Shown one piece after another: positions 3,576-54,546 of a DNA stretch of 64,000 bases (its first letter is position 1; every line of letters begins with the position of its first letter). Location: the NCBI RefSeq assembly GCF_947495725.1, contig NZ_CANLZZ010000002.1, forward strand, positions 558,001-622,000, given 5' to 3'. Made by a program: the position numbers and the translations under genes. Source of the DNA: an uncultured Lutibacter sp. Lineage in GTDB: Bacteria > Bacteroidota > Bacteroidia > Flavobacteriales > Flavobacteriaceae. The notes beneath the pieces were generated by a model. The model saw only the letters and a list, made by a program, of their open reading frames with translations. It made no database searches and was not told the origin of the DNA.

Positions 3576-3620
3576 CCTAATACTACAGGATAGTAATTAT
3601 TGGGTTTAAAATTAACTTTG
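3576..3620 (+). promoter_or_regulatory. PUL box plus -7 element ahead of GH78 operon
   Basis: Box CCTAATACTACAGGATA at 3576-3592, then a 20-nt spacer, then an exact TAnnTTTG element (TAACTTTG, 3613-3620). The ATG of the GH78 gene is 34 bp further on. Box and spacing match nine other sites in the window. An imperfect inverted repeat (3572-3582 with 3598-3608) overlaps this copy. Confidence 0.75.
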
Positions 3621-3654
3621 AAAATGTTAAGAAGAATTTAATTAGCTTTTAAAT

Positions 3655-6510
3655 ATGAATAAAATCAAGCTTTCAATTATACTACTATTAGTTATATGTA
3701 ATGTATCCTGTACTCAAAAAGAATTACCAGCAAAAGGATTAAATTTTAGATCTTTAACTGTTAATTCAAAACAAAATCCAACATCTATTGAAAGTGATCA
3801 ACCTTTTTTTTCTTGGGTTATAGAAGCTAAGGGTTTTAATAAATCACAATCTGCATTTCAGATTTTAGTAGCATCTTCAAAAAATAAATTAAACGAAAAT
3901 GATGCTGATTTATGGAATTCAAAGAAAGTAAATAGCGCTGAATCTACTTTTGTAAAATTTAAAGGGGCATCATTACAAGCATTACAAACTTATTATTGGA
4001 AAGTGAAGGTTTGGGATGAACAAGGAAATGTTTCAAATTGGTCTAATATTCAGCAATTTGAAATGGGATTAATGAGTGAGGCTAATTGGGGAGCCTCAAA
4101 ATGGATTACGCTAAATAAAGATACAAGAACTTCAGAGCATCGTTTTAGAGATTATAAAACGGGTAAAATGGAAAAGCCAATGATAGTTGATGGTTTTGCC
4201 GCTAGTTATTTTAGAAATGAAGTAGAACTTGATAAAGATGTTGAATATGCACAAGTATATATTTGTGGTTTAGGTTATTATGAATTGTATTTGAATGGAC
4301 AAAAAGTAGGAGATCACGTTTTGGATCCAGCTCCTTCAAATTATGATAAACAAGCTTATTACGTAAATTATAATATTACTGAACAAATAAAATCTGGAAA
4401 AAATGCCTTTGGAATTATATTAGGAAATGGATTTTATGGGCAAAATATTTCTTGGAGCCGAGATCCAGAATCGAATAAAAAAGGAGTGTCTTACGGATCA
4501 CCAGCCGTACGTTGTATGGTGAAATTAAATTATACTGATGGTACTTCATCAGATTTTTATACAGATGAAAACTGGAAAGAAGCTACGGGGCCAATTGTGT
4601 TTAATAATATTTATGGAGGTGATACTTATGATGCAAGATATGAGTTAGGAGCGTGGAATTCTGTAGGTTTTAATGATGAAAAATGGGGTAAAGTTAAAAT
4701 TACAAATCCAAAATTGAAAAAAGTAAGCGCACAACAAATTCCTGCTATTAAAAAATTGAAGGAGTTTGAACCTCAAAATGTATTTAAAGCTCCCGATGGA
4801 AATTGGATAGTGGATTTTGGACAAAATATTGCAGGCTGGGTAAAAATAAATGTTCAAGAAAAAGAAGGACAACTAATTGAAATTACAACGACAGAGACAT
4901 TATTAACTAATGGAAAAGATGTCTTTCAAGGTTCTACAGGTGGAGGAGCCAATGGCATGGCACAAATTTTTAAGTACATCTGTAAAGGAAGTGAAAAAGA
5001 ATCTTGGGAACCAAAATTTAGCTATCACGGTTTTAGGTATGCTAAAATAAAAGGGGTTTCGAGAAAACCAGATAGCGATATGATAAAAGCTGTATTGGTT
5101 GCTACTGATATTCAAGAAACGGGAAGTTTTAATTCTTCTAGTGAATTGCTGAATAAAATGCATACAATTAGCAAATGGACCATTGTAGATAATATTCACG
5201 GAATTCCAGAAGATTGTCCACATCGTGAAAAATGTGGTTGGTTAGGCGATGCGCATGCATTTTGTGAATATGCTTTGTATAATTATGACATGTACGATTT
5301 TTACAGAAAATATATGGAGGACATACGTACACAAATGCGACCTACAAAAGGACATAATAATCCTGAAGTTAAATTTCAAGTTCCAACTATGATTGCTCCA
5401 GGAAAGCGTACATCAACCTATGCCAAAATAGATTGGGGTGTTGCAACTATGTATTTACCATGGTACAATTACCTATATTATGGAGATGATACCATTGTAA
5501 AAGACTATTATAAAGAAATGAAAGAGTTAACAAATTTCTATCTTTCGTTTAAAGATGAAAATGGTATTATGCAAGATGGTATGGGAGATTGGTGTCCACC
5601 TAAATGGGACAGAAGAAAAAACCCTAGTGCTATGGAATGCGATCCAATAATTTCTGCAAATGCTTATTTTTATGATGTTTTAGGTATTATGCAAACTTTT
5701 GCCAAAATGAATAAGGATACTGCATATGAAGATCAAATGAAAAAGGAGAAACAAGAATTAAAAGAAGCATTCAATAAAAAATATTTAATTGAAATTCCAA
5801 CTACTAAGTATAAATGGTACGCAAGTCAAACAGCAACAGTGCAGGCGTTACAGTTTGGTATGGTTCCTGAAAATGAGTTGGTTAGCGTTGTAGATGGTTT
5901 GGTATATGATATTACAGAAGTAAAAGGAGGTCATCATTCAACAGGAATTCACGGGAATAGATATATTTATACTGTTTTAAGTAAATATGGAAAAGCAGAT
6001 TTAGCGTATCAAATATTAACTACACCAGAATTTCCAAGTCAAACCTATGTAATGAATTCAGGATTTACAACTTGGCCAGAGCGTCAATTTGAATGGGAGA
6101 AAATGGAAGGGCCAACAAATTCACTAAACCATCCAATGCATAGTGGGTTTGCTGCGTATTTTTATGAATCTTTAGGAGGGATAAAATCAACAAAGGCAGA
6201 AGTGGGATACAAAGAGTTTACAATAAACCCAGAATTTCCAACTCAAATAACTAATACAGATGTAACAATACCAACACCTTATGGTGAAATTAAAAATTCT
6301 TGGACTATTAAAGATGCCGTTTTAACAATGAAACTAACAGTTCCATTTAATACTAAAGGTCATGTATTGTTGAATGTTGATGAATTTAAATCCTTAAAAA
6401 TAAACGGGCAGCCAGTTAATGAAGATAACGAGAGTACTGAATTAAAAATTAAAGATGACTATACAGTTATATTAGGTTCAGGAGTATATGAAATTCAATA
6501 TGTAAAATAA
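3655..6510 (+). CDS. GH78 alpha-L-rhamnosidase, lipoprotein
   Basis: A 951-aa lipoprotein (lipobox ending at Cys in NVSCTQ) that should remove terminal alpha-L-rhamnose from oligosaccharides in the periplasm or at the outer membrane. Domain order is Fn3-like (residues ~25-140), bacterial rhamnosidase N domain (~175-330), a beta domain, the (alpha/alpha)6 barrel (~490-830) and a C-terminal beta domain. The catalytic block reads EDCPHREKCGWLGD: D520, E525 and D532 have the same spacing as D567, E572 and D579 of Bacillus RhaB. The other two GH78 proteins here carry the DCPQRDER variant, so this one belongs to a different subgroup. The late WPER motif stands where other GH78 enzymes have WERW, the proposed general base. 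It leads an operon with the PL25-like gene 13 bp downstream. Confidence 0.92.
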   Translation: MNKIKLSIILLLVICNVSCTQKELPAKGLNFRSLTVNSKQNPTSIESDQPFFSWVIEAKGFNKSQSAFQILVASSKNKLNENDADLWNSKKVNSAESTFVKFKGASLQALQTYYWKVKVWDEQGNVSNWSNIQQFEMGLMSEANWGASKWITLNKDTRTSEHRFRDYKTGKMEKPMIVDGFAASYFRNEVELDKDVEYAQVYICGLGYYELYLNGQKVGDHVLDPAPSNYDKQAYYVNYNITEQIKSGKNAFGIILGNGFYGQNISWSRDPESNKKGVSYGSPAVRCMVKLNYTDGTSSDFYTDENWKEATGPIVFNNIYGGDTYDARYELGAWNSVGFNDEKWGKVKITNPKLKKVSAQQIPAIKKLKEFEPQNVFKAPDGNWIVDFGQNIAGWVKINVQEKEGQLIEITTTETLLTNGKDVFQGSTGGGANGMAQIFKYICKGSEKESWEPKFSYHGFRYAKIKGVSRKPDSDMIKAVLVATDIQETGSFNSSSELLNKMHTISKWTIVDNIHGIPEDCPHREKCGWLGDAHAFCEYALYNYDMYDFYRKYMEDIRTQMRPTKGHNNPEVKFQVPTMIAPGKRTSTYAKIDWGVATMYLPWYNYLYYGDDTIVKDYYKEMKELTNFYLSFKDENGIMQDGMGDWCPPKWDRRKNPSAMECDPIISANAYFYDVLGIMQTFAKMNKDTAYEDQMKKEKQELKEAFNKKYLIEIPTTKYKWYASQTATVQALQFGMVPENELVSVVDGLVYDITEVKGGHHSTGIHGNRYIYTVLSKYGKADLAYQILTTPEFPSQTYVMNSGFTTWPERQFEWEKMEGPTNSLNHPMHSGFAAYFYESLGGIKSTKAEVGYKEFTINPEFPTQITNTDVTIPTPYGEIKNSWTIKDAVLTMKLTVPFNTKGHVLLNVDEFKSLKINGQPVNEDNESTELKIKDDYTVILGSGVYEIQYVK

Positions 6511-6523
6511 AAACATTTAAATA

Positions 6524-7954
6524 ATGAAAAAGATACTTTTTTTGTGTTGCTCTTTTATACTGTTAACTGCTTGTGTAAATTCACAGATTAAAATCAAGCA
6601 AGAAAGTATTTCAACCGTAGATTTTAAAGCATTAACTATTAAAGGTAAATTTGGAATTGCAATAAATGGACGAACTTATCAAAAAGATGCATTGGCATCA
6701 CATAAAGGTTATCAATATATTGCATATTATAATGAGAACCGACGAGTATGTATTTCAAGAAGAAAACTTCCTTTAGGAGATTGGAGAACCATTCAATTTT
6801 TAGATTATAAATTTAATAGTGACGATTCACATAATATAGTATCATTTGGTATTTGCCCAAATGACGGAACTATTCACCTAGCATTTGACCACCATGGGCA
6901 TCCTTTACATTATCGAGTTTCAAAAAAAGGTTTAGCAACTAATCCAGAAACTATTGAATGGAGCTCAGCTTCATTTGGTTCAATTAAAAATGAATTGGAA
7001 GAAAGTAAACCTATTAAAATAACCTACCCAAAATTTTGGCAAACTCCTGAAGGTAATCTTCAAATGAATTACCGTAGAGGAGGTTCAGGTAATGGAGATC
7101 GTATGTTGGTAGACTACAATTCTAAAACTGGGAAATGGGAAAATACACGGCAAATAGATTCAGCGTTAGGGATGTTTAAAGATCAGTTAGGAAAAAGTGA
7201 GTCGCGTTGCTCTTATCCAAATGGCTACGATTATGATGCTAATGGAAGGTTGCATTTAACTTTTGTTTGGCGTGAAAATAGCCAGGGTGCTAATCACGAT
7301 TTAATGTATGTTTATAGCGATGATCGTGGATTTACATGGAAGAATAATGAAGGGGAATTGTTAGAGGAAATCCCAAATGTTAATTCATCTGGTATTGTTG
7401 TACAATCCATTCCAAGAGTATTAGGTTTAATGAATGATCATGGACAGGTTATTGATTCAAAAGGGCGCATACATGTAGTTATGTATCATGGCACTAAAGA
7501 AACAATTGAAGCAGCAGGAAGCACATTGGGAGCAAGCCGGTGGGGACCAAGTGCTGCGCAGCGATATTTTCATTATTGGAGAGAAGAGAATGGTAAATGG
7601 AATAGTTTACAGTTACCTATGGCGGTTGGTAATCGTCCTAAAATTTTTGCGGATAAAAATGACAACCTTATTATAATTTATTGTGGTACAACCGATAAAA
7701 CAATAAAAGGTAAAAGTAGCAAAGCTGATGGTGAAGATTTAATAGTAGCTGTGGCTACCAAAAATAATTATTGGCAAGATTGGCATATTGCACATTCGGT
7801 AAAAGGGCCATTTATGAATGATATGTTGGGTGATGTTTACCGTTGGAAAAATGAAGGTGTTTTATCTATAATGCTTCAAGATAAACCTAAAAATAATAGA
7901 CAACCAAGCTCTTTGAGAGTTGTCGATTTATCTTTTAATTTAAGTAAAAAATAA
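6524..7954 (+). CDS. PL25-like (BNR_4 beta-propeller) ulvan lyase candidate
   Basis: A 476-aa lipoprotein (LTAC lipobox, C17). The whole mature protein has the blade-like repeats of the BNR_4 family. Typical signatures are SDDSHNIVSFGI (H103), GTIHLAFDHHGHPLHYR (H123, H124, H126), then DGRLHLTF-like and SKGRIHVV-like blades. In PL24 and PL25 ulvan lyases, histidine, tyrosine and arginine residues on a seven-bladed propeller cleave the Rha3S-uronate bond by beta-elimination; the histidine blocks here fit that plan. It lies 13 bp after the GH78 gene, so lyase and rhamnosidase are made together. Family assignment is from motif recognition only; a sialidase-like or non-catalytic propeller is less likely. 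Confidence 0.75.
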   Translation: MKKILFLCCSFILLTACVNSQIKIKQESISTVDFKALTIKGKFGIAINGRTYQKDALASHKGYQYIAYYNENRRVCISRRKLPLGDWRTIQFLDYKFNSDDSHNIVSFGICPNDGTIHLAFDHHGHPLHYRVSKKGLATNPETIEWSSASFGSIKNELEESKPIKITYPKFWQTPEGNLQMNYRRGGSGNGDRMLVDYNSKTGKWENTRQIDSALGMFKDQLGKSESRCSYPNGYDYDANGRLHLTFVWRENSQGANHDLMYVYSDDRGFTWKNNEGELLEEIPNVNSSGIVVQSIPRVLGLMNDHGQVIDSKGRIHVVMYHGTKETIEAAGSTLGASRWGPSAAQRYFHYWREENGKWNSLQLPMAVGNRPKIFADKNDNLIIIYCGTTDKTIKGKSSKADGEDLIVAVATKNNYWQDWHIAHSVKGPFMNDMLGDVYRWKNEGVLSIMLQDKPKNNRQPSSLRVVDLSFNLSKK

Positions 7955-8068: not shown

Positions 8069-8112
8069 CAGTGCAGTACAGGACACTTTTTGATGAAGTA
8101 ATATTTAATTTG
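8069..8112 (+). promoter_or_regulatory. PUL box plus -7 element ahead of GH5-sulfatase-rhaM operon
   Basis: Box CAGTGCAGTACAGGACA at 8069-8085. The best -7 match is TTAATTTG (8105-8112), one mismatch from TAnnTTTG, with a 19-nt spacer; the other nine sites have 20. The GH5 start codon is 24 bp beyond. Confidence 0.68.
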
Positions 8113-8136
8113 CAATGAATTTAATAAATATTACTA

Positions 8137-9531
8137 ATGAAGTTTCAAGCTGTTTTTTTGTTGTTTACATTAACAACTTTAGTTACATATTCGCAAATTA
8201 ACCACGGATTAAGAGATGAATCAGGTCGTCATGTTATTCCAAGAGGTTTTGTAATCAATACTAATGATCATAAAGGTGAAGTGGTTTTTGACAGTGATGA
8301 TTATATGAGAATGGTTAGAATGGGCGCAAATACGCAGGTTATTCGATTAGAACTTGGAAAGTTAAGCAGTTTCCCTGGTGGAAAATTAGATAAAAATTAT
8401 CTTTTAAAATTAGATACTTTAGTAGGGTTGGGCAAAAATTCAGGAATGAAAACTGTTTTTAAAATGACTGTTTATGGTGTAGATAAATTTGTTTGGGAAG
8501 AATTTTGGTTAAATAAAAACAATGAATATCAGACATATATAGATGCTTGGAAAGTTATTTGGAAAAGATTTTCTAGCGATTCATCAGTTTTAGGGTACGA
8601 TGTTGTTAATGAGCCAAGAAAGTTGACAATGGATATTTCTTATACAGATCTCACAAAAAAATATCTAATTCCATTGTATCAAAACATTATTGATGAAAGT
8701 CAAAAGATAAATGCAGATAAGAAGATTCTTTTTCAATCGATTTTTATGAATAAAGGTGAAGCTATAGATAATAATCAATATGCTGAAATTAAAACTCCAA
8801 TAAACAGAAAAAACATCATTTTCGCACCTCATATTTATCAAAATAACATTAATTTAATTAAGCCAGTAATGGATCGTTTTGATAAGGAATCGAAAATGCT
8901 TAATGCACCAATTCTAATTGGAGAATGGGGTTTTCCAACATTTGCTTCGACAGATACCTTAATTGATGGTAAATTGGGGCAGCTAAAATACAAAGAGCTT
9001 TATATTAAAACAGCTGAAACATTTGACCGTATGGGGGTTGGGTCTATAAAAGCTTGGTTTTTAGGAAATAGAAGTATGCAAAATTTTCTTCCTGGAGGTC
9101 CTTCTACTTGGGCTATATTTAGTGATAAAAAAGCTGCAGGTACAGTAGAGCGTAAATACATAACAGATATTATATCCCGTCCTTTTCCTCAATGTATTGC
9201 CGGTAATATTCAATCGTTTTTATTTAATCACGCAACAAGAACTCTTGATTTAAAAATAAAAGCTGATAATAACAAAGGAACTTCTAAAATATTTATTGGA
9301 GCCAATAGGCATTACCCTGATGGATTTTCAATACTAATTAATGAAGATTTGGTAATGTTTTATGACCCGTTAAAAAATGTAGGACTTGAGGTTTATAAAT
9401 GCCCAAATGATGTAAATCCATCAAATTTTATTTGGGACAATCAAAGTCAAAAATTAATAGTGTTAAAATGGCCAATTAGAAATGAAGATTTGAATATAAA
9501 AATTGTTCCAGGCTTAATGAATTTTAAATAA
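8137..9531 (+). CDS. GH5-like glycoside hydrolase, secreted
   Basis: A 464-aa protein with a signal peptide (to about residue 19, TYSQ). Residues ~20-345 form a clan GH-A TIM barrel: VIPRGFV near the first strand, acid/base E159 in YDVVNEP and nucleophile E263 in ILIGEWGF, the standard GH5 pair. Residues ~350-464 look like a beta-sandwich, an arrangement that recalls endoglycoceramidase-type GH5 enzymes. The bond cut is not evident from sequence; in this locus it could act on a xylose, glucose or glucuronate linkage. It is the first gene of a box-driven operon with a sulfatase 41 bp downstream and then rhaM. Confidence 0.8.
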   Translation: MKFQAVFLLFTLTTLVTYSQINHGLRDESGRHVIPRGFVINTNDHKGEVVFDSDDYMRMVRMGANTQVIRLELGKLSSFPGGKLDKNYLLKLDTLVGLGKNSGMKTVFKMTVYGVDKFVWEEFWLNKNNEYQTYIDAWKVIWKRFSSDSSVLGYDVVNEPRKLTMDISYTDLTKKYLIPLYQNIIDESQKINADKKILFQSIFMNKGEAIDNNQYAEIKTPINRKNIIFAPHIYQNNINLIKPVMDRFDKESKMLNAPILIGEWGFPTFASTDTLIDGKLGQLKYKELYIKTAETFDRMGVGSIKAWFLGNRSMQNFLPGGPSTWAIFSDKKAAGTVERKYITDIISRPFPQCIAGNIQSFLFNHATRTLDLKIKADNNKGTSKIFIGANRHYPDGFSILINEDLVMFYDPLKNVGLEVYKCPNDVNPSNFIWDNQSQKLIVLKWPIRNEDLNIKIVPGLMNFK

Positions 9532-9572
9532 TAGTAAAAAAGTGAATTAAAGTAATTACTAAAAATATATTT

Positions 9573-11327
9573 ATGAATAAATGGTTAGTGGCAGGAGTTA
9601 TTATTTTTTCAATTTTTGGTTGCAATTCAAAAAAGGAAAATAGCCAAAAAGAGAATGAGGTTTCATCTTTAATGCAGTTGCCAGAGCAACCAAATATTTT
9701 ATGGTTAGTAACCGAAGATATGGGACCTTACATACCTCCGTTTGGAGATAATACTGTTGAAACGCCTAATTTAACTAGGTTGGCAAATGAAGGGGTGATT
9801 TACCCAAATTTATATTCTACATCAGGAGTATGCGCTCCAAGCCGAGCGGCAATTGCAACGGGTATGTATCCATCTAGTATTGGAGCAAATCATATGCGTA
9901 CAAATTCTTATATGAAGCACACTGGATTACCCGCTTATGAAGCTGTGCCCCCGTCAGAAGTAAAAATGATAAGTGAATTACTTCGTAAACAAGGTTATTA
10001 TTGTACAAATAATTATAAAGAAGATTATCAATTTAGAGCTCCAAAAACAGCTTGGGATGAAAGTAGTAAATATGCACATTGGAGAAATAGAGCTAAAAAT
10101 CAACCTTTCTTTTCAGTTTTTAATTTTACCGAAACTCATGAGTCGGGATTGTTTGAACCCTATGGATTTCGTCAAATAGAAACAAGACATTATCATGCTG
10201 GAGACACTACTTATGTTTGGAAACAAAATGGGCTTCCTGATGCAAAAAATAGAATGACGGAAGATGAAACACCTAAACATTTATCAAAAGACACAAAATT
10301 TAAGATTCCGCCATATCTTCCAAATAACGATGTTACAAATCGTGATATGTGGAAATTATATAACAATATTGTCGAAATGGATAAACAAGTTGGAGTAGTT
10401 TTAAAGCAGTTAGAAGATGATGGGTTGTTAGAAAATACAATAATCTTTTTTTATGGAGACCATGGGGGCCCTTTACCAAGAGAAAAACGTTTAATTTATG
10501 ATTCAGGCTTAAATACGCCATTAATTGTTCGTTATCCAAATAAAGTGGGAGCTGGTAAAAAAGTAGATGATCTAATTAGTTTTGTAGACTTTGCACCAAC
10601 ACTACTTTCTTTAGCTCAAGTTGAACCAAAACAGTATATGCAGGGTCAGGCCTTTTTAGGAGATTTAGCATCTCAAGAAAAACGTAAATACATCCATGCA
10701 GCCGCTGATCGTTTTGATGAAGTAACTGATGCCATTAGAGCAGTTAGAGACAATCAATTTAAATATATTAGGAATTATAAACCAGAACAAGGGTATTATT
10801 TACCACTTGCTTACAGAGAAAAAATACCCACAATGCAAGAATTATTAAAGTTGCGTAGTGAAGGTAAATTAAATGAAATTCAAATGCAATGGTTTAGAAA
10901 TCAGAAACCTGTGGAAGAATTGTTTGATTGTAAAGCAGATCCATACGAACTAGAAAATTTAGCACAAAAACCAGAGTATAAAAAAAAATTAATTGAGCTT
11001 AGAAATGAAATGAATAGATGGTTGAATGAGATTAAAGATAATCCAGAATTGACTGAATTAGAATTGATAAAACAACTTTGGAGTGGAAAAGATAGTAAGC
11101 CAAAAACAGCTAAACCTATAATTTCTAGTTCAAAAGGTGAAATAATCATTGATTGTGCAACAGAAGGTGCTTCAATAGGTTATAAGGTGAAGTATCAAGG
11201 TGAAAAATCTAAAAGTTGGAGTGTATATAAAGGACCATTTAATATTTCAAAAGGAGCTACTATTGAAGTGCGAGCGCATAGAATAGGTTTTATACCAAGT
11301 GAAATAATAACGTTTAATTACAATTAA
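9573..11327 (+). CDS. S1 family sulfatase with C-terminal chitobiase-like domain, lipoprotein
   Basis: A 584-aa lipoprotein (FGCNSK). The N-terminal alkaline-phosphatase-like domain has metal-binding TEDMGPY near residue 48 and the formylglycine motif CAPSR (C87-R91) followed by AAIATG. A later YGDHGG block supplies further metal ligands. It resembles heparan N-sulfatase-like S1 enzymes. Residues ~510-584 form a small Ig-like domain like the C-terminal domain of chitobiases, also present in the GH2 protein of this locus. It should remove sulfate esters from the polymer or oligomers, and needs a formylglycine-generating enzyme or anSME encoded elsewhere. Which position is desulfated cannot be told from sequence. 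Confidence 0.9.
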   Translation: MNKWLVAGVIIFSIFGCNSKKENSQKENEVSSLMQLPEQPNILWLVTEDMGPYIPPFGDNTVETPNLTRLANEGVIYPNLYSTSGVCAPSRAAIATGMYPSSIGANHMRTNSYMKHTGLPAYEAVPPSEVKMISELLRKQGYYCTNNYKEDYQFRAPKTAWDESSKYAHWRNRAKNQPFFSVFNFTETHESGLFEPYGFRQIETRHYHAGDTTYVWKQNGLPDAKNRMTEDETPKHLSKDTKFKIPPYLPNNDVTNRDMWKLYNNIVEMDKQVGVVLKQLEDDGLLENTIIFFYGDHGGPLPREKRLIYDSGLNTPLIVRYPNKVGAGKKVDDLISFVDFAPTLLSLAQVEPKQYMQGQAFLGDLASQEKRKYIHAAADRFDEVTDAIRAVRDNQFKYIRNYKPEQGYYLPLAYREKIPTMQELLKLRSEGKLNEIQMQWFRNQKPVEELFDCKADPYELENLAQKPEYKKKLIELRNEMNRWLNEIKDNPELTELELIKQLWSGKDSKPKTAKPIISSSKGEIIIDCATEGASIGYKVKYQGEKSKSWSVYKGPFNISKGATIEVRAHRIGFIPSEIITFNYN

Positions 11328-11674: not shown

Positions 11675-11719
11675 CAGCACAGTGCAGGATGCATTTAACA
11701 GGCTGTAAGAGTAATTTTA
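11675..11719 (+). promoter_or_regulatory. PUL box plus -7 element ahead of PL24-like gene
   Basis: Box CAGCACAGTGCAGGATG (11675-11691), 20-nt spacer, then TAATTTTA (11712-11719), one mismatch from TAnnTTTG. The start codon lies 43 bp downstream. Confidence 0.68.
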
Positions 11720-11762: not shown

Positions 11763-13949
11763 ATGAAAATAAAACACTTTAAAGAAGGTTCGAGAGCTGA
11801 ATACTTATTTCTACTTTTTGTATTTTGTTCTTATTTTATTTCAGCACAAGTAGTTCTTGAGGATGAAGTTAAAATTACTGACATAGGCTTGCATTTTGAT
11901 GGAAGTAAAGTTGAAAGTGGGAATGGTAGTCAAGATGTAAATACTCCCTACGATTATTTTTACGGCCGTAATATTTCAGCCCATGGAGATTGTATTAAGA
12001 CATTTGGTATTTATGTTTTTATGACGTGGTATCGTGGTGGAAAAGATGATCGCCATGTAATGTTAACACGTTATAATACAATTACAGGTTCAATGGCAAC
12101 TATAGAGTTTCCTCATAGACATACAGGGTTTAATAACCAATGGTGGATAGGTGAATCACATAACACTATTGGGTTGGCAATAAGCCCTCTAGATGGCACT
12201 ATCCATTTGCTTTATGATATGCATGCATATCACAAAACACGACCTTCAGATGGAAGTTTAGCAAATGATTATTTTAGATATTCTTATTCAGTTAAAAATG
12301 CTACAACTGTTTCAGATGCTGATTTTACCTTAGATAAATTCGTAAAGAATAGTTCAGGAGGTTATAAGCATTTAAGTTTGAATGGCGGTGAGGACTACTC
12401 TAATTTTCAAGGGTTAACATATCCTCAATTTTTCTTGAATGATGCTGGTGATCTTTTCATGTATATGCGTGAAGGTGGAAATAATAATGGTGCTTATAAA
12501 TTTTCTAAATATTCTGCCAATACTTCTTCTTGGTCTAACTTTACTCATTTCAATGTTTTAAATGCCAAAAACCAACCAGAAATAGATCATAACTGGGGAC
12601 TTTATGGGAATATGAAATATGTGAATGGAAAAATAAGAGTTGGGTTTCAGCGTAGAGAAAACAAAGAAGATAAATACCAATATCAAAATGGTGTGTATTA
12701 TGCTTATTCTGATAATCAGGATGGTACAAGTGATTGGAAAAACCATTCAGGTGAAAGCTTTTCTTTACCACTTTATGACGCTGATTTTGTAAAAGTAATG
12801 GAGCCTGGCGATTATGTGCAGACAACTCAAATAGATAAAGTTTATATTGTTAGCGACTTTGATTGGACAGTTACAGATAATGGCGATGTACATATTATTA
12901 GCAAAGTAAAGGATAATCAATATAATATTACCAAATATTTACATACCTACAAACCAGTTGGTGCTACAGATTTTATTACTTCAGAAGATTTTGCAGGAGG
13001 AACTTCTATTTATACTTATGGAGATGATGTTTACATAATTGGTTTAACAACTAGTCGACGTGTTTTTGTAGATAAGGCAGTAGGAGGAACAAATAGTTTT
13101 TCTAGAGTTTATGAAGCAACATCTGGTAAAACATTTGATCATGGTCGGGTTCATATCAATAATGGGAAGCTGTATTATTATTTAATGGAGAAAAAATCTG
13201 GTAATGCACAACCCTTGTATCTTCAAATTATAGATTTGGATATTGTACCTACAAACCCTAAAGGTTCTAATAATTTTGCAATTCAGGCTATTGGAGAAAC
13301 GTGTGCTAATATGGATAATGGTAAACTGATTATTAAAGGAACTGCAAAACATAATTATGTAGCAACTATTAATGGTGTTAACTATGATTTTGATAAAAAT
13401 AAAACCATAGAAGGTCTAGGTCCAGGAACTTATGATTTATGTATTGACGTAGTTGGAGAAAATTTCAGTCATTGTTATGAAGTAACGATAGAACAAGCAA
13501 CAAAATTAACTGGGAAAATTAGTGTAAATAAACAATCTGCAAAAGTCTCTGTCCAATCTGGATTGGCGCCTTATACGCTCATTAAAAACGGACAGAAAAT
13601 ATTTGAAACTAATCAGCCAAATTTTTCTATAGAAGTGAATCATGGCGATACTATTCAAATTAAGAGTAAGGAAACTTGTCAAGGAGAACTACTAAAAACC
13701 ATCAAATTACATAACAATATTAAAGCATATCCTAATCCTACAAATGGTCTTTTTGAATTGTATATTCCAAATGTCGAGAAATCAATAGGTATAGAAGTTT
13801 ACAATATTTATTCCCAATTATTAATTTCTAAAACTTACACAGTGCAAGCTGGTAAGGTTCAATTGAATTTAGAAGATAAGTCTAAAGGTATCTACTTTGT
13901 AAAAGTAAATTCAAAGACACCTACATTTGTTAAAATTATAAAAAATTAA
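11763..13949 (+). CDS. PL24-like beta-propeller ulvan lyase candidate with T9SS sorting domain
   Basis: A 728-aa secreted protein. The signal peptide runs to about residue 29 (YFISAQ). Residues ~30-490 form a beta-propeller with BNR-type blades; WWIGESHNTIGLAI (H133) and HLLYDMHAYHK (H154, H157) match the histidine blocks of PL24/PL25 ulvan lyases. Residues ~495-640 carry small repeats with Cys pairs. Residues ~650-728 are a T9SS type A sorting domain (KAYPNPTNG near the start, KGIYFVKV and a Lys-rich end). This is the only protein in the window with such a tail, so it is the likely extracellular or surface-released first-attack lyase. It forms a single-gene unit behind its own box. PL24 versus a related BNR lyase family is not certain. 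Confidence 0.72.
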   Translation: MKIKHFKEGSRAEYLFLLFVFCSYFISAQVVLEDEVKITDIGLHFDGSKVESGNGSQDVNTPYDYFYGRNISAHGDCIKTFGIYVFMTWYRGGKDDRHVMLTRYNTITGSMATIEFPHRHTGFNNQWWIGESHNTIGLAISPLDGTIHLLYDMHAYHKTRPSDGSLANDYFRYSYSVKNATTVSDADFTLDKFVKNSSGGYKHLSLNGGEDYSNFQGLTYPQFFLNDAGDLFMYMREGGNNNGAYKFSKYSANTSSWSNFTHFNVLNAKNQPEIDHNWGLYGNMKYVNGKIRVGFQRRENKEDKYQYQNGVYYAYSDNQDGTSDWKNHSGESFSLPLYDADFVKVMEPGDYVQTTQIDKVYIVSDFDWTVTDNGDVHIISKVKDNQYNITKYLHTYKPVGATDFITSEDFAGGTSIYTYGDDVYIIGLTTSRRVFVDKAVGGTNSFSRVYEATSGKTFDHGRVHINNGKLYYYLMEKKSGNAQPLYLQIIDLDIVPTNPKGSNNFAIQAIGETCANMDNGKLIIKGTAKHNYVATINGVNYDFDKNKTIEGLGPGTYDLCIDVVGENFSHCYEVTIEQATKLTGKISVNKQSAKVSVQSGLAPYTLIKNGQKIFETNQPNFSIEVNHGDTIQIKSKETCQGELLKTIKLHNNIKAYPNPTNGLFELYIPNVEKSIGIEVYNIYSQLLISKTYTVQAGKVQLNLEDKSKGIYFVKVNSKTPTFVKIIKN

Positions 13950-14080: not shown

Positions 14081-14125
14081 CCTAATAGTACAGGATACAA
14101 GATCTTTCGCTTAATGTTATTTTTA
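14081..14125 (+). promoter_or_regulatory. PUL box plus -7 element ahead of the toroid lyase/GH78 operon
   Basis: Box CCTAATAGTACAGGATA (14081-14097), 20-nt spacer, then TATTTTTA (14118-14125), one mismatch from TAnnTTTG. The start codon at 14149 is 23 bp beyond. Confidence 0.7.
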
Positions 14126-14148: not shown

Positions 14149-16062
14149 ATGAAAAGACGCTCTTTTATAAATATAACTACAATAGGGAGTCTTGGTTTGT
14201 TATTACCACTGCATCATGCTTGCATTGAAAATAAGCATAATTCTTTTGATTTTAAGGATATGACAGATTTTGAATCTTCTTCATTCAAGCTTCTTAAAAC
14301 TTGGTGTGATGCAATGATTCGTGAGCAAATTAACGATGAAAATGATCCTGTATCTAACGGTGCTTTGTATTGTGAAGCTTGTGATTTAATTCATGGAAGA
14401 TGTCAAGAGTCCGTGTATCCATTTTTGTATATGGTTGATAAAACTGGCGAGCAAAAATATTTAGATGCTGCTATAAAAGTAATGGATTGGTCAGTAAACG
14501 TTGACAAACCAGATGGTAGTTGGACCAATATGATTGATCCAAAATCTTGGTGGGGAACAACTGTTTTTGGAGCCATTGCTTTGGGAGAAGCCTTACACCA
14601 TCACGGTCATATTTTACCTATAGAACTTAAAGGAAAATGGGAAAAACGTCTAAAACAGGCAATTGAATTAGTGTATCAAAAATTCGACATGCATTTTAGT
14701 CATATCAATTATAGATTCACAGCTATTTATGCTTTATACTTTTTAGGAAACTACTTCAATGAAGAAAAATATATAGTTAGAAGTAAAGAGTTTGCAGCGT
14801 TAATACCAGCATATTTAACAGAGCCAAATAAATTGATTTTTGGTGAAGATAAACCCGATAATGATAAAAGTGCAAAAGGATTATATCCAATAGATTTAGG
14901 TTATAATGTTGAAGAAACCTTAAATGGAGTGGTGCAATATGCAGTTCTTGAAAAAGATGAAGAGTTATTAGAGTTATTAGCTGAATCTATGAATGGGCAT
15001 TTAGAATTTATGTTGCCAGATGGTGCTTGGGATAATAGTTTTGGTACTCGACAAAACAAATGGACGTATTGGGGAAGTAGAACAACTGATGGTTGTCAAC
15101 CAGCTTTTGCTTTAATGGCGAATAGAAACCCTGCTTTTGGAACAGCAGCAGTTTTAAGTACAGAGTTGTTAGAACGATGTACTGTAAACGGACTTTTAGC
15201 TGGAGGAATACACTATGAAACTCATGGAGTAAAACCGTGTATGCATCACACTTTTGCACATGCTAAAAATTTAGCCTTTGTTTTAGATAATTCAGAAAAT
15301 TTAAAAAATGTAAATAAAAAAACACCAGTACCAAGAAGTACAAATAACGGTGTAAAACATTTTCCAGAATTAGATGTTTGGTTAGCAGCAAGAGGGCCTT
15401 GGAGAAGTACCATTTCATCTTACGATCAAATTTGGAAGAAAAAATATTCAGTTGCAGCCACAGGAGGTTCATTAGCAGTTTTATGGCATCAAAAAGTGGG
15501 GCCTTTATTTACAGCGAGTATGGCTGAATATATTGAAGTTGAAGACTATAACCAACAACCACAACCAGGTGAAGACTTTTGTTTAACACCTCGTGTTGAG
15601 CGTTTTGTTAATGAGGTTTGGTACACCAATATACACGATTTAAAAGCTAAAGTTTCTAATACCGATAAAAACGGAATTATCAATTTTGAAGTACTTGCAG
15701 CCTTAACAAACAGAGAAAAAGAAACCTTAGATGCCTCAGGAGATTTTAAACTGAATTATGTATTCGATACAGAAAAAACAACTATTAAAGCATTAAGAAC
15801 ATCAATTGAAGAAAACGATGATAGGTTGGTATTACCAATTATTTCTCCAACAGGTGAAAAAGTTATTGAAATTGCTGAAAACAAAATTGAAATTCATAAA
15901 AAAGAAGGCATAGTTGTACTTGAAGCAAACGTGCCAATAGCTATTAAAGAGTCTGAAAAATCGCGCATTTTTAATCAAGTTCCAGGGATGGAAGTTTTGC
16001 CAATAATAGTGGTTTTTCCAAAGGAAATAAAAGAGGTTATATGTACAATTAATGTGATTTAA
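14149..16062 (+). CDS. Toroid polysaccharide lyase-like protein (PL40-like candidate), Tat-type signal
   Basis: A 637-aa protein, full-length paralogue of the truncated gene at 1-1175. The N-terminus KRRSFINI followed by a hydrophobic stretch resembles a twin-arginine signal; a Cys after LPLHHA could be a weak lipobox. Residues ~40-420 are helix-rich with repeated W/H/Y motifs (CEACDLIHGRCQES, KSWWGTTVFGAIALG, HHTFAHAK), like an incomplete (alpha/alpha) toroid. Residues ~430-637 are beta-rich. This architecture is that of heparinase-like lyases. From memory the closest described group is ulvan lyase PL40, which I cannot verify here. It leads the operon running to 24812. Catalytic residues are not assigned. 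Confidence 0.65.
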   Translation: MKRRSFINITTIGSLGLLLPLHHACIENKHNSFDFKDMTDFESSSFKLLKTWCDAMIREQINDENDPVSNGALYCEACDLIHGRCQESVYPFLYMVDKTGEQKYLDAAIKVMDWSVNVDKPDGSWTNMIDPKSWWGTTVFGAIALGEALHHHGHILPIELKGKWEKRLKQAIELVYQKFDMHFSHINYRFTAIYALYFLGNYFNEEKYIVRSKEFAALIPAYLTEPNKLIFGEDKPDNDKSAKGLYPIDLGYNVEETLNGVVQYAVLEKDEELLELLAESMNGHLEFMLPDGAWDNSFGTRQNKWTYWGSRTTDGCQPAFALMANRNPAFGTAAVLSTELLERCTVNGLLAGGIHYETHGVKPCMHHTFAHAKNLAFVLDNSENLKNVNKKTPVPRSTNNGVKHFPELDVWLAARGPWRSTISSYDQIWKKKYSVAATGGSLAVLWHQKVGPLFTASMAEYIEVEDYNQQPQPGEDFCLTPRVERFVNEVWYTNIHDLKAKVSNTDKNGIINFEVLAALTNREKETLDASGDFKLNYVFDTEKTTIKALRTSIEENDDRLVLPIISPTGEKVIEIAENKIEIHKKEGIVVLEANVPIAIKESEKSRIFNQVPGMEVLPIIVVFPKEIKEVICTINVI

Positions 16063-16071
16063 ATGATAATT

Positions 16072-16812
16072 ATGAAATTTATAAAAAAAACAGGTATTTA
16101 TTTTGTAGGCCTTTTTTTACTAGCTATACATTTAAATTGTAGTGGAAGCGATAATGATGAGGAAATTGTAAAAGTAGAGCCAGAGCCAGAAAACCTGATT
16201 CCCTTAATACCAAATGAAGGTATTCCAAGTCCGTTCAATTTATTTACTGTAATTAATGATGATGTAGAACGAAAGGATTTTAACACGGTTTCTAAATGGT
16301 ACGAAGAAGCTCCAAATAAACAAGTATTTAAGCTATTTATAGGTGATGAATTTAATGGAGAAAGAAAACATGCTAGAACGGAGGCTGGGCAGGGTTTAAA
16401 ATGGAAAGAAGGCACAGAGTGGCACACTTTTGAAGCAACTATGAAGCCAAGCGGTAAACTTAGTGAAACGTATACTATTGCACAACTTTTTGCAGGATGT
16501 TGTGGTCCACAACTTAGAGTAGAGGTAAAAACAAATGGTAGAATACATGTAGGATCTAGGAATAATGGAAACATAGGAATTTCTACAGATGACGATTGGG
16601 CAAACGGACAAAAAAGTTTCAAAATCAAAATTAGAAGTAACGGTAAAGATATGGAGGTGTATTTTAATAATGAGTTGAAATTTACAGGCATTTCTGAAGA
16701 AAGTTCATTGGGTAATGCAAATGCATTGTATCACTTTAGGTGGGGAGTTTACTCAAACAATAAAATGACAAAAAATTTAAGTAACACGGTAACAAATATA
16801 ACTAGAGAATAA
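16072..16812 (+). CDS. Small beta-jelly-roll lipoprotein, polysaccharide-lyase-like
   Basis: A lipoprotein of about 246 aa. I prefer the ATG at 16072 (MKFIKK, positive n-region, lipobox HLNC) over the one at 16063, which abuts the previous stop codon. After a Glu/Pro linker the domain reads like a compact jelly roll: FNGERKHARTEAG, a TIAQLFAGCCGP block, RVEVKTNGRIHVGS, and a late FRWGVYSN. RTE and the WGVY strand are reminiscent of PL7, PL18 and PL28 lyases, where Arg/Glu/Gln/Tyr on the concave sheet do catalysis. Family is unassigned; a carbohydrate-binding role is equally possible. The adjacent Cys pair within the usual QIH-like strand is unusual. It sits between the toroid lyase and two GH78 genes. 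Confidence 0.6.
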   Translation: MKFIKKTGIYFVGLFLLAIHLNCSGSDNDEEIVKVEPEPENLIPLIPNEGIPSPFNLFTVINDDVERKDFNTVSKWYEEAPNKQVFKLFIGDEFNGERKHARTEAGQGLKWKEGTEWHTFEATMKPSGKLSETYTIAQLFAGCCGPQLRVEVKTNGRIHVGSRNNGNIGISTDDDWANGQKSFKIKIRSNGKDMEVYFNNELKFTGISEESSLGNANALYHFRWGVYSNNKMTKNLSNTVTNITRE

Positions 16813-16840
16813 TATTAAAAAATTGTAAAAAAAATAACTA

Positions 16841-19627: not shown

Positions 19628-19630
19628 ATC

Positions 19631-23247: not shown

Positions 23248-23363
23248 TTTAAGATTGAAAACAATGTAGTAAAAATACCATTGATTTTTCGAGTTTCAAA
23301 CAGAGTAAAGGAATTGTTCAATCAGCCATATAATCATTAAATAGAGAGTGAAATTAAAAAAAT

Positions 23364-25106: not shown

Positions 25107-25151
25107 CAGTATAGTACAGGATACCAATACTTGATACTCTTTGTAGATTTG
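25107..25151 (+). promoter_or_regulatory. PUL box plus -7 element ahead of SusCD operon
   Basis: Box CAGTATAGTACAGGATA (25107-25123), 20-nt spacer, exact -7 element TAGATTTG (25144-25151). The leader to the SusC start is about 85 nt. Confidence 0.78.
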
Positions 25152-25240
25152 TTAACATATTATTATGATTTGGCCTTTTTGCATTAAGAGTAATAATTAT
25201 AATGAAATCAAACTAATTTATGTTAAAATTTAAACTGAAT

Positions 25241-28399: not shown

Positions 28400-28409
28400 A
28401 AAGAACGTA

Positions 28410-30278: not shown

Positions 30279-30317
30279 TTTTATACAATTTGTTATAATT
30301 AATATAAAGAAAAAAAA

Positions 30318-33347: not shown

Positions 33348-33369
33348 TATAAATAGAAAATTTAGATAA

Positions 33370-35082: not shown

Positions 35083-35121
35083 TATAATTGTATACTTTAA
35101 ATGAATTTAAAAATATTAAAC

Positions 35122-36171
35122 ATGAAAATAAAATTAATATTAGTCGCTTTTGCCCTTAGTTTGATGGCTTGCGAGAATCAGGTTAATGAATTTGACGACT
35201 TTGGCTCAACTTCAGTGTATTTCCCATATCAAACTCCCGTTAGAACTTTAATTTTAGGTAAATATGATTTAGGTTTTAATGAAAACGATAACAATGGTAG
35301 GTTTGAAATAGGGGTTATTATGTCTGGAGTTTATGAAAATACAACGAACAGAAAGGTGCACTTTGAATTAGCGCCTGAATTGATAAACCCTTCTGTGATA
35401 GGTGTTAGCTCAGTAAATGTACAGGTGTTGCCATCTTCTTATTATACTATTGAACAAGAGAGTCCAGTAACAATTCCAGTGGGTTCTACTAAAGGACGTA
35501 TTCCTGTACAACTTAATGATGCATTTTTTGAAGACCCTCTTTCTTTTGCAGGTGAAAATGAGGTTAATTATGTACTCCCACTAAAAATTACAGATTACGA
35601 ACAATTAGATTCACTTTTAACTGGGGTTCCTAATGAAGATGTTATAAACCCTGTTAAGGTAAAAGGTAGTGATTGGGCATCTGAGCCAAAAGATTATACA
35701 CTTTACGGTATTAAATTTATGAATAAATATCAAGGCATATATTTGCGCCGAGGTGAAGATGTAATGACTAATGCTTCAGGAGAGAAAGTGAGTAATGTTT
35801 ACCAAGCTGAATTTGTGGTAAGGGATGAATTGGTTACCTTATCTACAAGCGGAAGATTTAATGTTGAATTGTCTAATCTTGTGCGAAGGGGTGGACTTTC
35901 AAGTCCTGGAAGTGTAAATATGGAATTATCATTTAATGAAAATGGTGATTGTACAATTTCTAGTTTTAATGATGATATCTATAATATTTCAGGCTCAGGA
36001 AAGTTTGTTGAAGATGGAGATGAATGGGGAGGAAAAAAACGTGATGCAATCTACTTAGATTATACATATACAGATACAGCGAACAACGAAACACATGCCG
36101 TTAAAGACACTTTAGTGATTAGAGACAGAAATGTGAAATTTGAAGAATTTACACTTGAATTGACAGAATAA
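35122..36171 (+). CDS. DUF1735-like surface glycan-binding lipoprotein candidate
   Basis: About 349 aa from the ATG at 35122 (MKIKLILVAF, lipobox LMAC, then ENQ); the ATG at 35101 adds a short non-signal extension. Residues ~25-190 look like two beta-sandwich modules of the DUF1735/SusE type (SVYFPYQTPVRTL, GRFEIGVIMSGVYEN, YYTIEQESPVTIPVGS). The remaining half has an LIPOCALIN-like or jelly-roll pattern and no catalytic motif I recognise. As the gene after SusCD it is probably a surface glycan-binding protein. It ends 42 bp before a strong terminator. Confidence 0.7.
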   Translation: MKIKLILVAFALSLMACENQVNEFDDFGSTSVYFPYQTPVRTLILGKYDLGFNENDNNGRFEIGVIMSGVYENTTNRKVHFELAPELINPSVIGVSSVNVQVLPSSYYTIEQESPVTIPVGSTKGRIPVQLNDAFFEDPLSFAGENEVNYVLPLKITDYEQLDSLLTGVPNEDVINPVKVKGSDWASEPKDYTLYGIKFMNKYQGIYLRRGEDVMTNASGEKVSNVYQAEFVVRDELVTLSTSGRFNVELSNLVRRGGLSSPGSVNMELSFNENGDCTISSFNDDIYNISGSGKFVEDGDEWGGKKRDAIYLDYTYTDTANNETHAVKDTLVIRDRNVKFEEFTLELTE

Positions 36172-36327: not shown

Positions 36328-36372
36328 CAGGATAGTTCAGGATGGTTTATTTTTTTTAAAAATTTAATTTTG
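36328..36372 (+). promoter_or_regulatory. PUL box plus -7 element ahead of PL28-like gene
   Basis: Box CAGGATAGTTCAGGATG (36328-36344), the clearest direct repeat (CAGGAT-N4-CAGGAT); 20-nt spacer; exact -7 TAATTTTG (36365-36372). The start codon is 22 bp beyond. Confidence 0.78.
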
Positions 36373-36394: not shown

Positions 36395-37318
36395 ATGAGA
36401 AAAAGTAAGTTTAATTACATGTTCATCACAATAACCACTTTATTTGTTTTTGTGATTTTCATTTCATGTCAATCTGATGATGAGGATGATGATATCATAG
36501 AGATTATTAAAGAAGACCCTGATCCTGATCCAGAAGTAGTCATAGCAGATGAAGATACAGGTACATATACAACGTGTAATTCAGATGGCGAAAATGCTAC
36601 TAGGACATCGGATGATTTACCAAATCCTGTTAATATAGGAACCATTGATGATAGGAGTTGCTATGCAAATTACAAAGAAAGTACGATTGATGGAAAAGTT
36701 TGGGGTATATATAATATAACTGATGGTTCTAATCATATAGATTCAAATGGTTTGCAGCCTAGAATTGAGCGTTCATTACCAAGAGTAGCAAAAACAGGTA
36801 TAGGAACTTTTGTGAAATTTACAGGGACTGTAAGAGTTCTTGAAGTAGGAGATACTACTGGAGAAAACAATGATGGTAGTTACATAGCACAGGCTAAAGG
36901 TAAACATACTGGAGGTGGTGGTTCGCCAGATCCAGCCATTTGTTTGTATTTAGCTAAACCAGTATATGGTACAGGTGCTGATGCAAATAAGCAAGTGTCG
37001 TTTGATATTTATGCGGAACGTATCTTAGTTCGTGGAGGATCAGGAAGCGGCAGAGAAATTGTTTTCTTAAAGAACATAAAGAAAAATGAGGCAACTGATT
37101 TTGAGCTAAAAGTAGGTTTTAGAGAAGACCCTAACGATGCTACAAAAAAATTACACTATTGCGATGCAATAATTGGGGGAGAAACTTTTAATTGGAATAT
37201 TCCTGAAGCAGAACGTGCAACAGAATCGAAAATTAGATATGGTGCATATCGTGTAAAAGGTGGGAGAGCTCAAATTAGATGGGCAAATACTACGCACACT
37301 AAAGTGGAAAAAGATTAA
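36395..37318 (+). CDS. PL28-like ulvan lyase candidate, lipoprotein
   Basis: A 307-aa lipoprotein (FISC, then an acidic Asp/Glu/Pro linker to about residue 55, suggesting surface export). The domain at ~60-300 has [35 protein letters not shown], a GKHTGGGG block and [12 protein letters not shown], which resembles PL28 ulvan lyases such as the Nonlabens enzyme as I remember it. The fold is a beta-jelly roll. The proposed reaction is beta-elimination at Rha3S-uronate bonds. It forms a single-gene unit with its own box and terminator. Confidence 0.68.
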
Positions 37319-39757: not shown

Positions 39758-39802
39758 TAAATTTAATAGATATTAATAATAAAACTGACCTGTAGTGTCA
39801 TG
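39758..39802 (-). promoter_or_regulatory. PUL box plus -7 element ahead of GH39-like gene (minus strand)
   Basis: On the minus strand, box CATGACACTACAGGTCA (39802-39786), 20-nt spacer, then TAAATTTA (39765-39758), one mismatch from TAnnTTTG. The start codon lies 39 bp beyond. The first half-site CATGAC is shared with the divergent box at 39847. Confidence 0.68.
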
Positions 39803-39846: not shown

Positions 39847-39891
39847 CATGACACAACAGGATAAATAAAATGCTACTTAGGATTAAGTTTG
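39847..39891 (+). promoter_or_regulatory. PUL box plus -7 element ahead of GH2-GH106-sulfatase operon
   Basis: Box CATGACACAACAGGATA (39847-39863), 20-nt spacer, exact -7 TAAGTTTG (39884-39891). Because transcription should begin near 39897, the ATG at 39870 cannot be the start; 39903 or, better, 39924 must be. Confidence 0.76.
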
Positions 39892-39923
39892 TTTTATTAA
39901 ATATGAATAGAATTAAAATTAAA

Positions 39924-51044: not shown

Positions 51045-51062
51045 AAAATAAACACTATTAAA

Positions 51063-52547: not shown

Positions 52548-52569
52548 TTAACCATTTATAAAATAGCGT

Positions 52570-54186: not shown

Positions 54187-54231
54187 CAGGACAGTACAGG
54201 ATGATTGAGTATTTTTAAATTAATAATTTAG
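54187..54231 (+). promoter_or_regulatory. Orphan PUL box plus -7 element with no coding gene behind it
   Basis: Box CAGGACAGTACAGGATG (54187-54203), 20-nt spacer, TAATTTAG (54224-54231), one mismatch from TAnnTTTG. No ORF of plausible length follows; a strong terminator lies 96 bp beyond. The gap 53986-54877 holds this unit and the next one. Confidence 0.68.
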
Positions 54232-54237
54232 CAGTGA

Positions 54238-54353
54238 TTTTATAGGAGTATAAGATGTTGAGTTAATTAAGTTTAATTAATTATTAAAAAATAATAATTA
54301 TTAAAGTTAAAAAGTTTGGTTAATAAGAGGAGCTTGGAGAAGCTCCTTTTTTT
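54238..54353 (+). ncRNA. Candidate small RNA between orphan PUL box and terminator
   Basis: Inferred transcript of about 110-120 nt starting a few bases after the -7 element at 54224 and ending in the T-run at 54353. It is A/U-rich with overlapping inverted repeats around 54270-54305 (TTAATTAA-type) and ends in a GC-stemmed hairpin. No start codon opens more than a few residues. Because it carries the box of the PUL regulon it could be a trans-acting regulator of PUL mRNAs, but nothing in the sequence proves function. Confidence 0.45.
54328..54353 (+). terminator. Intrinsic terminator of candidate small RNA
   Basis: Perfect 8-bp stem AGGAGCTT/AAGCTCCT with a GGAG loop and seven T (54347-54353), the first pairing in the stem. 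Confidence 0.85.
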
Positions 54354-54501
54354 AATGCTAAAAAAAGTTCAAAAGTGTATTTAATTTGTTCGAATTTATA
54401 GAGTATTTTAAAATTTGTAATTAATAAAAAAAAGGTAAAAATTATAGGCTTCGGATTAGATTAATTCGATGAAGAGTTGAATTCAACTATAATGATGAAT
54501 A

Positions 54502-54546
54502 TAGGATAGTACAGGACAGTTTTTGCTCTTACTTACGATAAATTTG
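54502..54546 (+). promoter_or_regulatory. PUL box plus -7 element upstream of lutABC
   Basis: Box TAGGATAGTACAGGACA (54502-54518), 20-nt spacer, exact -7 TAAATTTG (54539-54546). The next coding gene, lutA, starts 331 bp beyond, giving an unusually long leader. Confidence 0.75.

Follow-up and report, generated by a model that had tools for sequence, protein, structure and literature searches.

Ulvan is a major seaweed polysaccharide. Sugar regulators of the GntR family are often repressors, and B. subtilis AraR is a repressor that acts on palindromes. In the accessible parts of the published descriptions, GntR subfamilies are named after their C-terminal domain and their usual operators are palindromes, and there are precedents for GntR proteins on direct repeats among the NanR, FarR, NagQ and MocR types; the accessible part of PMC3870299 describes four tandem sites for the DeoR-type RhaR in Chloroflexus. 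For flavobacterial ulvan loci, the open-licence literature searched yielded neither a regulator nor an operator, and its accessible parts, including those of PMC3878776, PMC3870299, PMC12125979, PMC12858550, PMC11697453, PMC5320631, PMC4494728 and PMC8012715, contain no GntR rhamnose regulator in Bacteroidota; nor was the 17-mer consensus discussed below found as text in the main texts of that literature. The window analysed here is a 64,000-nucleotide stretch of contig C2 from an uncultured Lutibacter sp., and it is an ulvan PUL by its PL28 ulvan lyase (410 bits) and SusC/SusD pair.

A direct repeat in fixed register with the -7 element

An earlier note on this DNA had described ten copies of a 17-bp box with a 10-bp repeat period, and all ten 17-mers are present where it placed them, with the A at position 7 and the CAGG at positions 11-14 invariant in 10/10. 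The period stands but the length does not, becoming 18 bp once more sites are added; window and further sites together give CAGGATAG-TA-CAGGATAG, an 18-bp direct repeat of 10-bp period, and the 70 box sites from outside the window show a direct repeat without dyad. The boxes of the window, each with its octamer and what follows, are:

3576..3593, plus strand: 18-bp box; octamer TAACTTTG at 3613-3620; ahead of the GH78 rhamnosidase operon 3655-7954
8069..8086, plus strand: box; octamer TTAATTTG at 8105-8112, at 19 nt; ahead of GH5 and sulfatase genes 8137-11327
11675..11692, plus strand: box; octamer TAATTTTA at 11712-11719; ahead of a BNR_4 protein with secretion tail, 11763-13949
14081..14098, plus strand: box; octamer TATTTTTA at 14118-14125; ahead of genes 14149-24812, with a GH78 at 16841
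25107..25124, plus strand: box; octamer TAGATTTG at 25144-25151; ahead of SusC/SusD genes 25220-36171
36328..36345, plus strand: box; octamer TAATTTTG at 36365-36372; ahead of the PL28 ulvan lyase 36395-37318
39785..39802, minus strand: box; octamer TAAATTTA at 39765-39758; ahead of a GH39 gene 39718-38060
39847..39864, plus strand: box; octamer TAAGTTTG at 39884-39891; ahead of GH2, GH106 and sulfatase (by eye) genes to 53985
54187..54204, plus strand: highest-scoring box; octamer TAATTTAG at 54224-54231; no notable ORF after the box
54502..54519, plus strand: box; octamer TAAATTTG at 54539-54546; ahead of lactate-use genes 54878-57562

All ten are intergenic. As the ORF start listed after box 39847 (39870) falls between the box and its -7, the ATG at 39903 is the likelier translation start. 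Downstream of box 14081 the gene at 19631 resembles, by eye only, the GH78 at 16841, and that at 23364 is sulfatase-like. Box 54187 is followed by a terminator-like hairpin with a T-run at about 54329-54353, and its promoter is predicted to make a short RNA; a FopS-like RNA at 54292-54356 was considered and rejected, as it scores 23.1 bits where the gathering score is 56, and FopS matches in 0/3 related loci.

A PWM trained on the ten window sites scores those same sites at 20.1-26.4 bits, with the runner-up position in the window at 12.9, and at 14 bits or more it finds 10 positions in the window against a mean of 0.95 in 20 second-order Markov controls. The earlier note would have fallen had genes been hit as often as promoters, and it survives: 84 of 96 matrix matches of at least 13 bits in four genomes are intergenic, a count that includes the ten training sites and comes from stretches picked for their matches. 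The 40 nt upstream of the box hold no conserved element.

As had been claimed, in nine of the ten window 17-mers exactly 20 nt separate the end of the 17-mer from a TAnnTTTG-like octamer (five exact, four with one mismatch), the box at 8069 being the one at 19 nt. The same register holds at 74 of the 84 intergenic sites, which have an octamer with at most one mismatch at a gap of 20, while each of the other gaps between 8 and 35 has one in at most 4/84 sites and the opposite direction in at most 3/84 at any gap. The octamer, conserved at this fixed place and ending in G or A (TAnnTTTR), is a housekeeping -7 element; both the fixed register and the activator-like position that had been proposed for the box are supported. 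TTTG is found at gaps 15-31 in 0/66 box promoters, but 160 control promoters also have it at only 0-3.7% per gap, and the absent -33 was therefore dropped as proof of activation. A third repeat unit is not a general feature, since 3/79 sites match at least 5 of its 8 bases against 8/395 control offsets; tandem arrays are thus sporadic, and in those that occur the spacing of 20 nt to the octamer is kept by the last unit.

Regulon extent and the GntR gene that accompanies the box

As an independent test, profile R1, built from the ten window sites, was run over the 4.24-Mb genome, 150 of 19,412 first-look candidates being scored. Among these the ten window sites rank on top (E 9e-7 to 4e-5). The next five all fall at C2:527-554 kb (E 2.5e-4 to 0.016), around rhamnose-catabolism genes and at a distance of 4-31 kb to the left of the window; the first match elsewhere in the genome has an E of 0.18. 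The letters alone are insufficient at up to three mismatches, as the plain 17-mer then has 12 matches in the genome (8 within C2:523-613 kb) where the reversed pattern has 7. The boxes span the PL28 ulvan lyase through the lactate-use proteins, in agreement with the single regulon proposed earlier, and, with C2:523266 counted (matrix 16.6 bits; absent from the R1 matches at E<=10), the regulon would start some 35 kb ahead of the window. One other intergenic match, C5:92247, scores 17.1 bits and has no clear -7.

The regulator had been placed outside the window, and none is seen within it. The candidate gene, C2:537689-536640, is divergent from the rhamnose operon, at 20-21 kb to the left of the window. 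Its product has an N-terminal GntR winged HTH (PF00392, residues 17-80, 41.6 bits against a cut-off of 27) and a C-terminal LacI/periplasmic-binding-like domain (Peripla_BP_3, PF13377, 26.6 bits against a cut-off of 26.5; 38.9 in an orthologue), and a fold search puts LacI-family structures on top. With both domains of the AraR subfamily, it is an AraR-architecture GntR protein; the box is not the palindrome that is typical of GntR operators, a trait that does not define the family.

Box and GntR gene occur together. Of 38 genus genomes, four carry 13-22 boxes each (E<=0.05), and these are exactly the four with a GntR orthologue of at least 68% identity. Among 199 family genomes the GntR gene is present in 39/39 with at least two boxes, and 0/154 of those without it have two or more (Fisher 2e-35); among 295 class-wide genomes, a sample that shares two genomes with the family one, it is present in 7/7 with at least two. 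Each of the 80 loci retrieved through similarity to the GntR protein has a match of at least 14 bits, as against one such match in 20 other neighbourhoods (267 kb); in 79/80 a match reaches at least 17 bits and is followed at 19-20 nt by a -7, and in 62/80 such a match is divergent and at most 1 kb upstream (four loci with other gene coordinates left out). The other DNA-binding regulators checked, among the neighbourhood clusters listed, are found in at most 8/80 loci each. The isomerase association is nearly as strong (39/39 family genomes, Fisher 1e-34) since the GntR gene is, as a rule, linked to the rhamnose genes, and only three genomes split them. In these three the box follows GntR: G061 and G074 have the isomerase and neither GntR nor box, and G038 has GntR and two matrix boxes without the isomerase. 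A single match without GntR occurs in 9/53 box-positive family genomes and 15/24 class-wide, and of the 23 class-wide genomes in which a GntR homologue occurs (all of 35-45% identity), 14 have no box at E<=0.01. The box is common to many Bacteroidota, across dozens of genera.

Residue 58, in the recognition helix, is Glu in 28/28 proteins on the box side of the tree, in 0/15 other paralogues and in 0/4 further paralogues from box-bearing stretches. These four (G026 C1:422821, G002 C20, G016 C19 and G016 C27) are of a Phe58 type. Twenty-two weaker GntR matches of 32-47% identity were taken as paralogues, two G031 fragments being left out of the survey; 16 paralogue neighbourhoods contain one box-like match, without a -7, and the neighbourhood of a nested 47% paralogue in G002 contains no box. 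G144 has Val58 together with an altered repeat, CAGAACAGTA-CAGAACGG, but this repeat still scores 19.6 bits in the matrix, with a weak -7 at 20 nt, and is a soft case for specificity. G144 carries both GntR and isomerase. Four genomes (G419, G473, G438 and G521) have Glu58 yet no convincing intergenic box within the 17 kb examined. A Leu58-type paralogue motif, ACYAGTA-NN-TACYRGT, could be read as a direct repeat and is equally a palindrome, so it is not counted as support.

A proposed activator and the readings that compete with it

We put at roughly two in three the probability that the AraR-type GntR protein is an activator whose subunits line up head to tail on the repeat, at about -50 to -33. 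Two of them, sometimes more, would occupy CAGGATAG-TA-CAGGATAG along one DNA face, with the right half of the repeat in the position expected for a -33 element. The LacI-type domain would sense L-rhamnose or an early L-rhamnose product, and the bound protein would bring RNA polymerase carrying the housekeeping sigma to the TAnnTTTR promoters, so that ulvan depolymerisation and uptake come on jointly with rhamnose catabolism and lactate oxidation. An alternative sigma factor was rejected by argument, as the -7 remains TAnnTTTR and the box tracks one regulator gene.

The main rival is that the same protein represses from the box, blocking polymerase at -33 until a rhamnose-derived inducer frees it. 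GntR/AraR and LacI-type sugar regulators often do so, NanR is a precedent in the part of its literature available, the -33 region does lie under the box, and the other promoters here likewise have no clear -33, so that box promoters could work unaided. Occlusion, however, requires no exact register, whereas 74/84 sites have a good octamer at 20 nt in one direction and the last unit of the tandem arrays is again at 20 nt; repression seems to us unlikely, if the most serious of the alternatives.

The activator might instead be of the AraC or hybrid two-component type, as the earlier note had suggested, acting from an unlinked gene, with the GntR gene a mere neighbour. Such a promoter position is favoured by AraC activators, and AraC-domain matches number 20 genome-wide, four of them in frames of 1360-1449 aa; B. 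theta RhaR, in the partial account available, is an AraC-family positive regulator. Against this, no AraC domain comes nearer to the boxes than 170 kb (C2:480-662 kb has no match), the AraC-domain proteins of the relative loci form two clusters, each in 8/80, and in the three genomes where GntR and the rhamnose genes are split the box goes with GntR. The box period is 10 bp as against about 21 bp for the HTCS motifs in the accessible part of PMC3878776. With a GntR/LacI-type protein tracking the box, the earlier suggestion finds no support, and we consider it improbable. A DeoR-type regulator has less in its favour still: the published DeoR RhaR motifs share the periodicity of the box, being direct repeats of 10-11 bp period (PMC3870299, accessible part), but the sole HTH_DeoR match in the genome, C4:333144, is on a different contig from the boxes, and no DeoR gene stands beside the rhamnose genes of this genome, which makes this reading very hard to credit.

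Returning to the GntR activator, a wider proposal, for which we see even odds, is that it exemplifies a widespread Bacteroidota class of GntR/LacI hybrids. Its members would be true activators, stacked head to tail on 10-bp repeats and standing in for the -33 element; they would coordinate use of a whole polysaccharide, from lyases to lactate, as a trans-acting multi-locus regulon, possibly with a short RNA, and the repeat's fourth base would be read by residue 58 of the recognition helix. Together, the site, its spacing rule and the candidate sensor should make rhamnose/ulvan regulons predictable from sequence in dozens of genera, and box and candidate regulator offer a ready sensor-promoter pair.

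Comparison with known systems

The arrangement, a GntR protein on a direct repeat in activator-like register, is rare and now open to simple bench test. One near counterpart is B. subtilis AraR, which likewise has an N-terminal GntR HTH, a C-terminal LacI-type sugar domain and a sugar regulon; here, in contrast, a direct repeat is locked to the -7 and the regulon comprises ten or more promoters. The C-terminal domain of E. coli NanR is of the FadR type, unlike that of the candidate regulator. NanR resembles it as a GntR protein on tandem direct repeats, (GGTATA)3, which it binds cooperatively, but according to the available part of its description NanR is a repressor. The MocR proteins (GabR, PdxR, TauR) share the GntR HTH, often use direct repeats and, in the accounts accessible in part, often activate a divergent operon, but they have an aminotransferase-like sensor domain, head-to-tail dimers and a PLP ligand. 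DeoR-type RhaR shares the rhamnose regulon and the direct repeats of 10-11 bp period (PMC3870299, accessible part), but belongs to another protein family and acted as a repressor where it was tested. B. theta RhaR, of the AraC family, and the HTCS similarly control sugar use and PULs in Bacteroidota, but are of other protein families, and their direct repeats are about 21 bp apart in the accessible parts of PMC3878776 and PMC3870299.

Box sites and their -7 elements

All ten 17-mer boxes lie where the earlier note placed them and are intergenic, and the spacing it described holds, nine ending 20 nt and one 19 nt before a TAnnTTTG-like octamer. A weight matrix built from them gives its own sites at least 20.1 bits, versus 12.9 for the best remaining window position. 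The full-genome scan proposed in that note, made with a 48-nt profile of the ten window sites, returned behind these training sites five matches, all at C2:527-554 kb (C2 is the window's contig, the window itself spanning C2:558001-622000), and beyond them the best E was 0.18. Matrix scans of fetched stretches added a site at C2:523266, whose octamer has two mismatches, and a match on another contig (C5:92247) without a clear -7. The regulon spans ~90 kb.

The concern that the matrix might hit equally often inside genes is not borne out, as 84 of 96 matches of at least 13 bits in stretches of four genus genomes are intergenic; these stretches were selected for their hits, and the ten training sites are counted in the 84. 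With ties resolved in favour of gap 20, the best octamer has at most one mismatch at 78/84 intergenic matches versus 1/12 within genes. With no tie preference, such an octamer stands at gap 20 in 74/84 intergenic sites (65/74 outside the window), whereas each of the remaining gaps between 8 and 35 has at most four, and each gap in the opposite direction at most three. Among 80 relatives picked by similarity to GntR, the candidate regulator, gap 20 is found in 110 of 117 matches having a -7 above 3 bits, and 38/155 matches lack such a -7. The consensus of 70 non-window sites is CAGGATAG-TA-CAGGATAG; its right half is the strongest part (C11 in 70/70), and the 40 nt upstream of these 70 boxes hold no conserved element. 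In some relatives at least three 10-bp units stand in tandem (six at locus L140); the last unit keeps the usual register in the L140, L151 and G269 arrays, and the register is less clear in that of genome G002 contig C7.

Genes and a predicted short RNA of the regulon

The left part contains the GntR gene and rhamnose-catabolism genes; the assignments in the window part come from a scan of 20 proteins, 19 of them from the window.

Genes of the regulon
Left part: isomerase, best model L-rhamnose isomerase (504 bits, under the 647 cut-off)
Left part: FGGY kinase, best model rhamnulokinase (61 bits, far under cut-off)
Left part: class II aldolase and aldehyde dehydrogenase genes
Left part: bifunctional rhamnulose-1-phosphate aldolase/dehydrogenase, named via its orthologue in genome G026 (941 bits, above cut-off)
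Window part: PL28 ulvan lyase, GH78, GH106, GH39, GH2, GH5, a sulfatase
Window part: SusC/SusD and lactate-use proteins

The lactate genes have a 376-nt leader (window 54502-54878) with a terminator-like hairpin ~40 nt before the first gene, possibly an attenuator. An iron alcohol dehydrogenase, lactaldehyde reductase-like, is seemingly split across two overlapping frames (57508-58723). The rhamnose-ulvan region may be a mobile island, since gene sets that look alike by eye flank it (C2:512776-523242 and window 60440-64000, C2:618440-622671), with integrase-like genes on the left side (C2:487108 and 518699).

The top-scoring box has no ORF of note downstream (window 54187-54360); a hairpin with a T-run lies ~110-130 nt past the expected transcription start, so that a box-driven short RNA is predicted, and the stretch weakly resembles the FopS sRNA family, at 23.1 bits against a gathering threshold of 56. 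A near-invariant box variant, CAGGATTGTACAAGATA, lies upstream of a short stretch without a long ORF in four genomes (L053, G026 C1:261541; L062, G002 C22:102023; L078, G016 C4:117918; L011, C2:523266), with a terminator-like hairpin after it in two of the four. A second box precedes a sulfatase-like gene at these loci in three genomes, and that of the window's genome appears decayed.

GntR and the boxes

The GntR/LacI-type protein (gene C2:537689-536640) is present at 80/80 loci, which were selected by this protein, and the isomerase and kinase at 73/80; among the clusters listed, AraC-domain proteins occur at up to 8 loci per cluster, sigma-54 activators at up to 7, LuxR-type proteins at up to 5 and a histidine kinase at 9. 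The unbiased direction, from boxes to GntR, agrees with this association. Among 38 genus genomes, exactly the four with a GntR orthologue of at least 68% have 13-22 boxes, and six more have one weak match each. Among 199 family genomes, 53 have a match at E<=0.01; GntR is present in 44 of these, among them every one of the 39 that have at least two matches, while nine single-match genomes lack GntR, and one GntR genome, G144, lacks a match. Of 295 class genomes, 24 have a match, and GntR is present in 7/7 with two or more (two of these, the window's genome and G163, belong to the family set as well), in 2 single-match genomes and not in the other 15; no match is found in 14 of the 23 GntR-bearing genomes. 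The large searches ran under stricter filters, so these counts are lower bounds.

In some genomes GntR and the rhamnose genes occur apart. The isomerase is present in G061 and G074, where a search at E<=1e-70 finds no GntR and the 19-20 kb surrounding the isomerase gene contain no box match of at least 13 bits. In G038, which has GntR and two matrix boxes (one of them at E<=0.01), the isomerase is missing. G144 has both genes; its GntR is 46% identical and carries Val in place of Glu at residue 58 of the recognition helix, and the altered repeat CAGAACAGTA-CAGAACGG adjoins its GntR gene. Glu58 occurs in 28/28 sequences on the tree's box side (five without a convincing box) versus 0/19 others, and box position 14 is G at 81/84 sites in the four genomes and 107/108 in the relatives. 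This one covariation event and clade difference are suggestive of a link between residue and box, not proof.

GntR paralogue genes have their own conserved motifs just before them, by type (L174, L175, L177-L182; L169-L173), TACCNNAACAGAACAG for Phe58 and ACYAGTA-NN-TACYRGT, a palindrome or repeat, for Leu/Met58, which suggests autoregulation. A box immediately precedes a Phe58-type gene in G026 (C1:422640) and G002 (C20:98169), which may place another regulator under the regulon's control.

Proposed mechanism and known regulators

Because the boxes keep an exact register and one orientation and overlap the -33 region, polymerase contact, and hence activation, is the favoured reading; a missing -33 element is in itself not informative on this point. 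For the Lutibacter agarilyticus orthologue, structure prediction from 37 sequences (mean pLDDT 88, pTM 0.71) gives a winged-HTH helix-strand pattern joined by a domain matching LacI-family structures, suggesting a sugar ligand, which from the genes controlled would be rhamnose or rhamnulose.

The rhamnose regulators described in the available part of PMC3870299 are of AraC, DeoR and LacI types, and the term GntR is absent from that paper. B. theta HTCS motifs repeat at ~21 bp (PMC3878776, in excerpt), and precedents for direct-repeat-binding GntR proteins exist. The protein architecture is already known and the operator unusual, and from comparison with published regulators we therefore place the system as a variant, set apart by this operator and a well-bounded large regulon.
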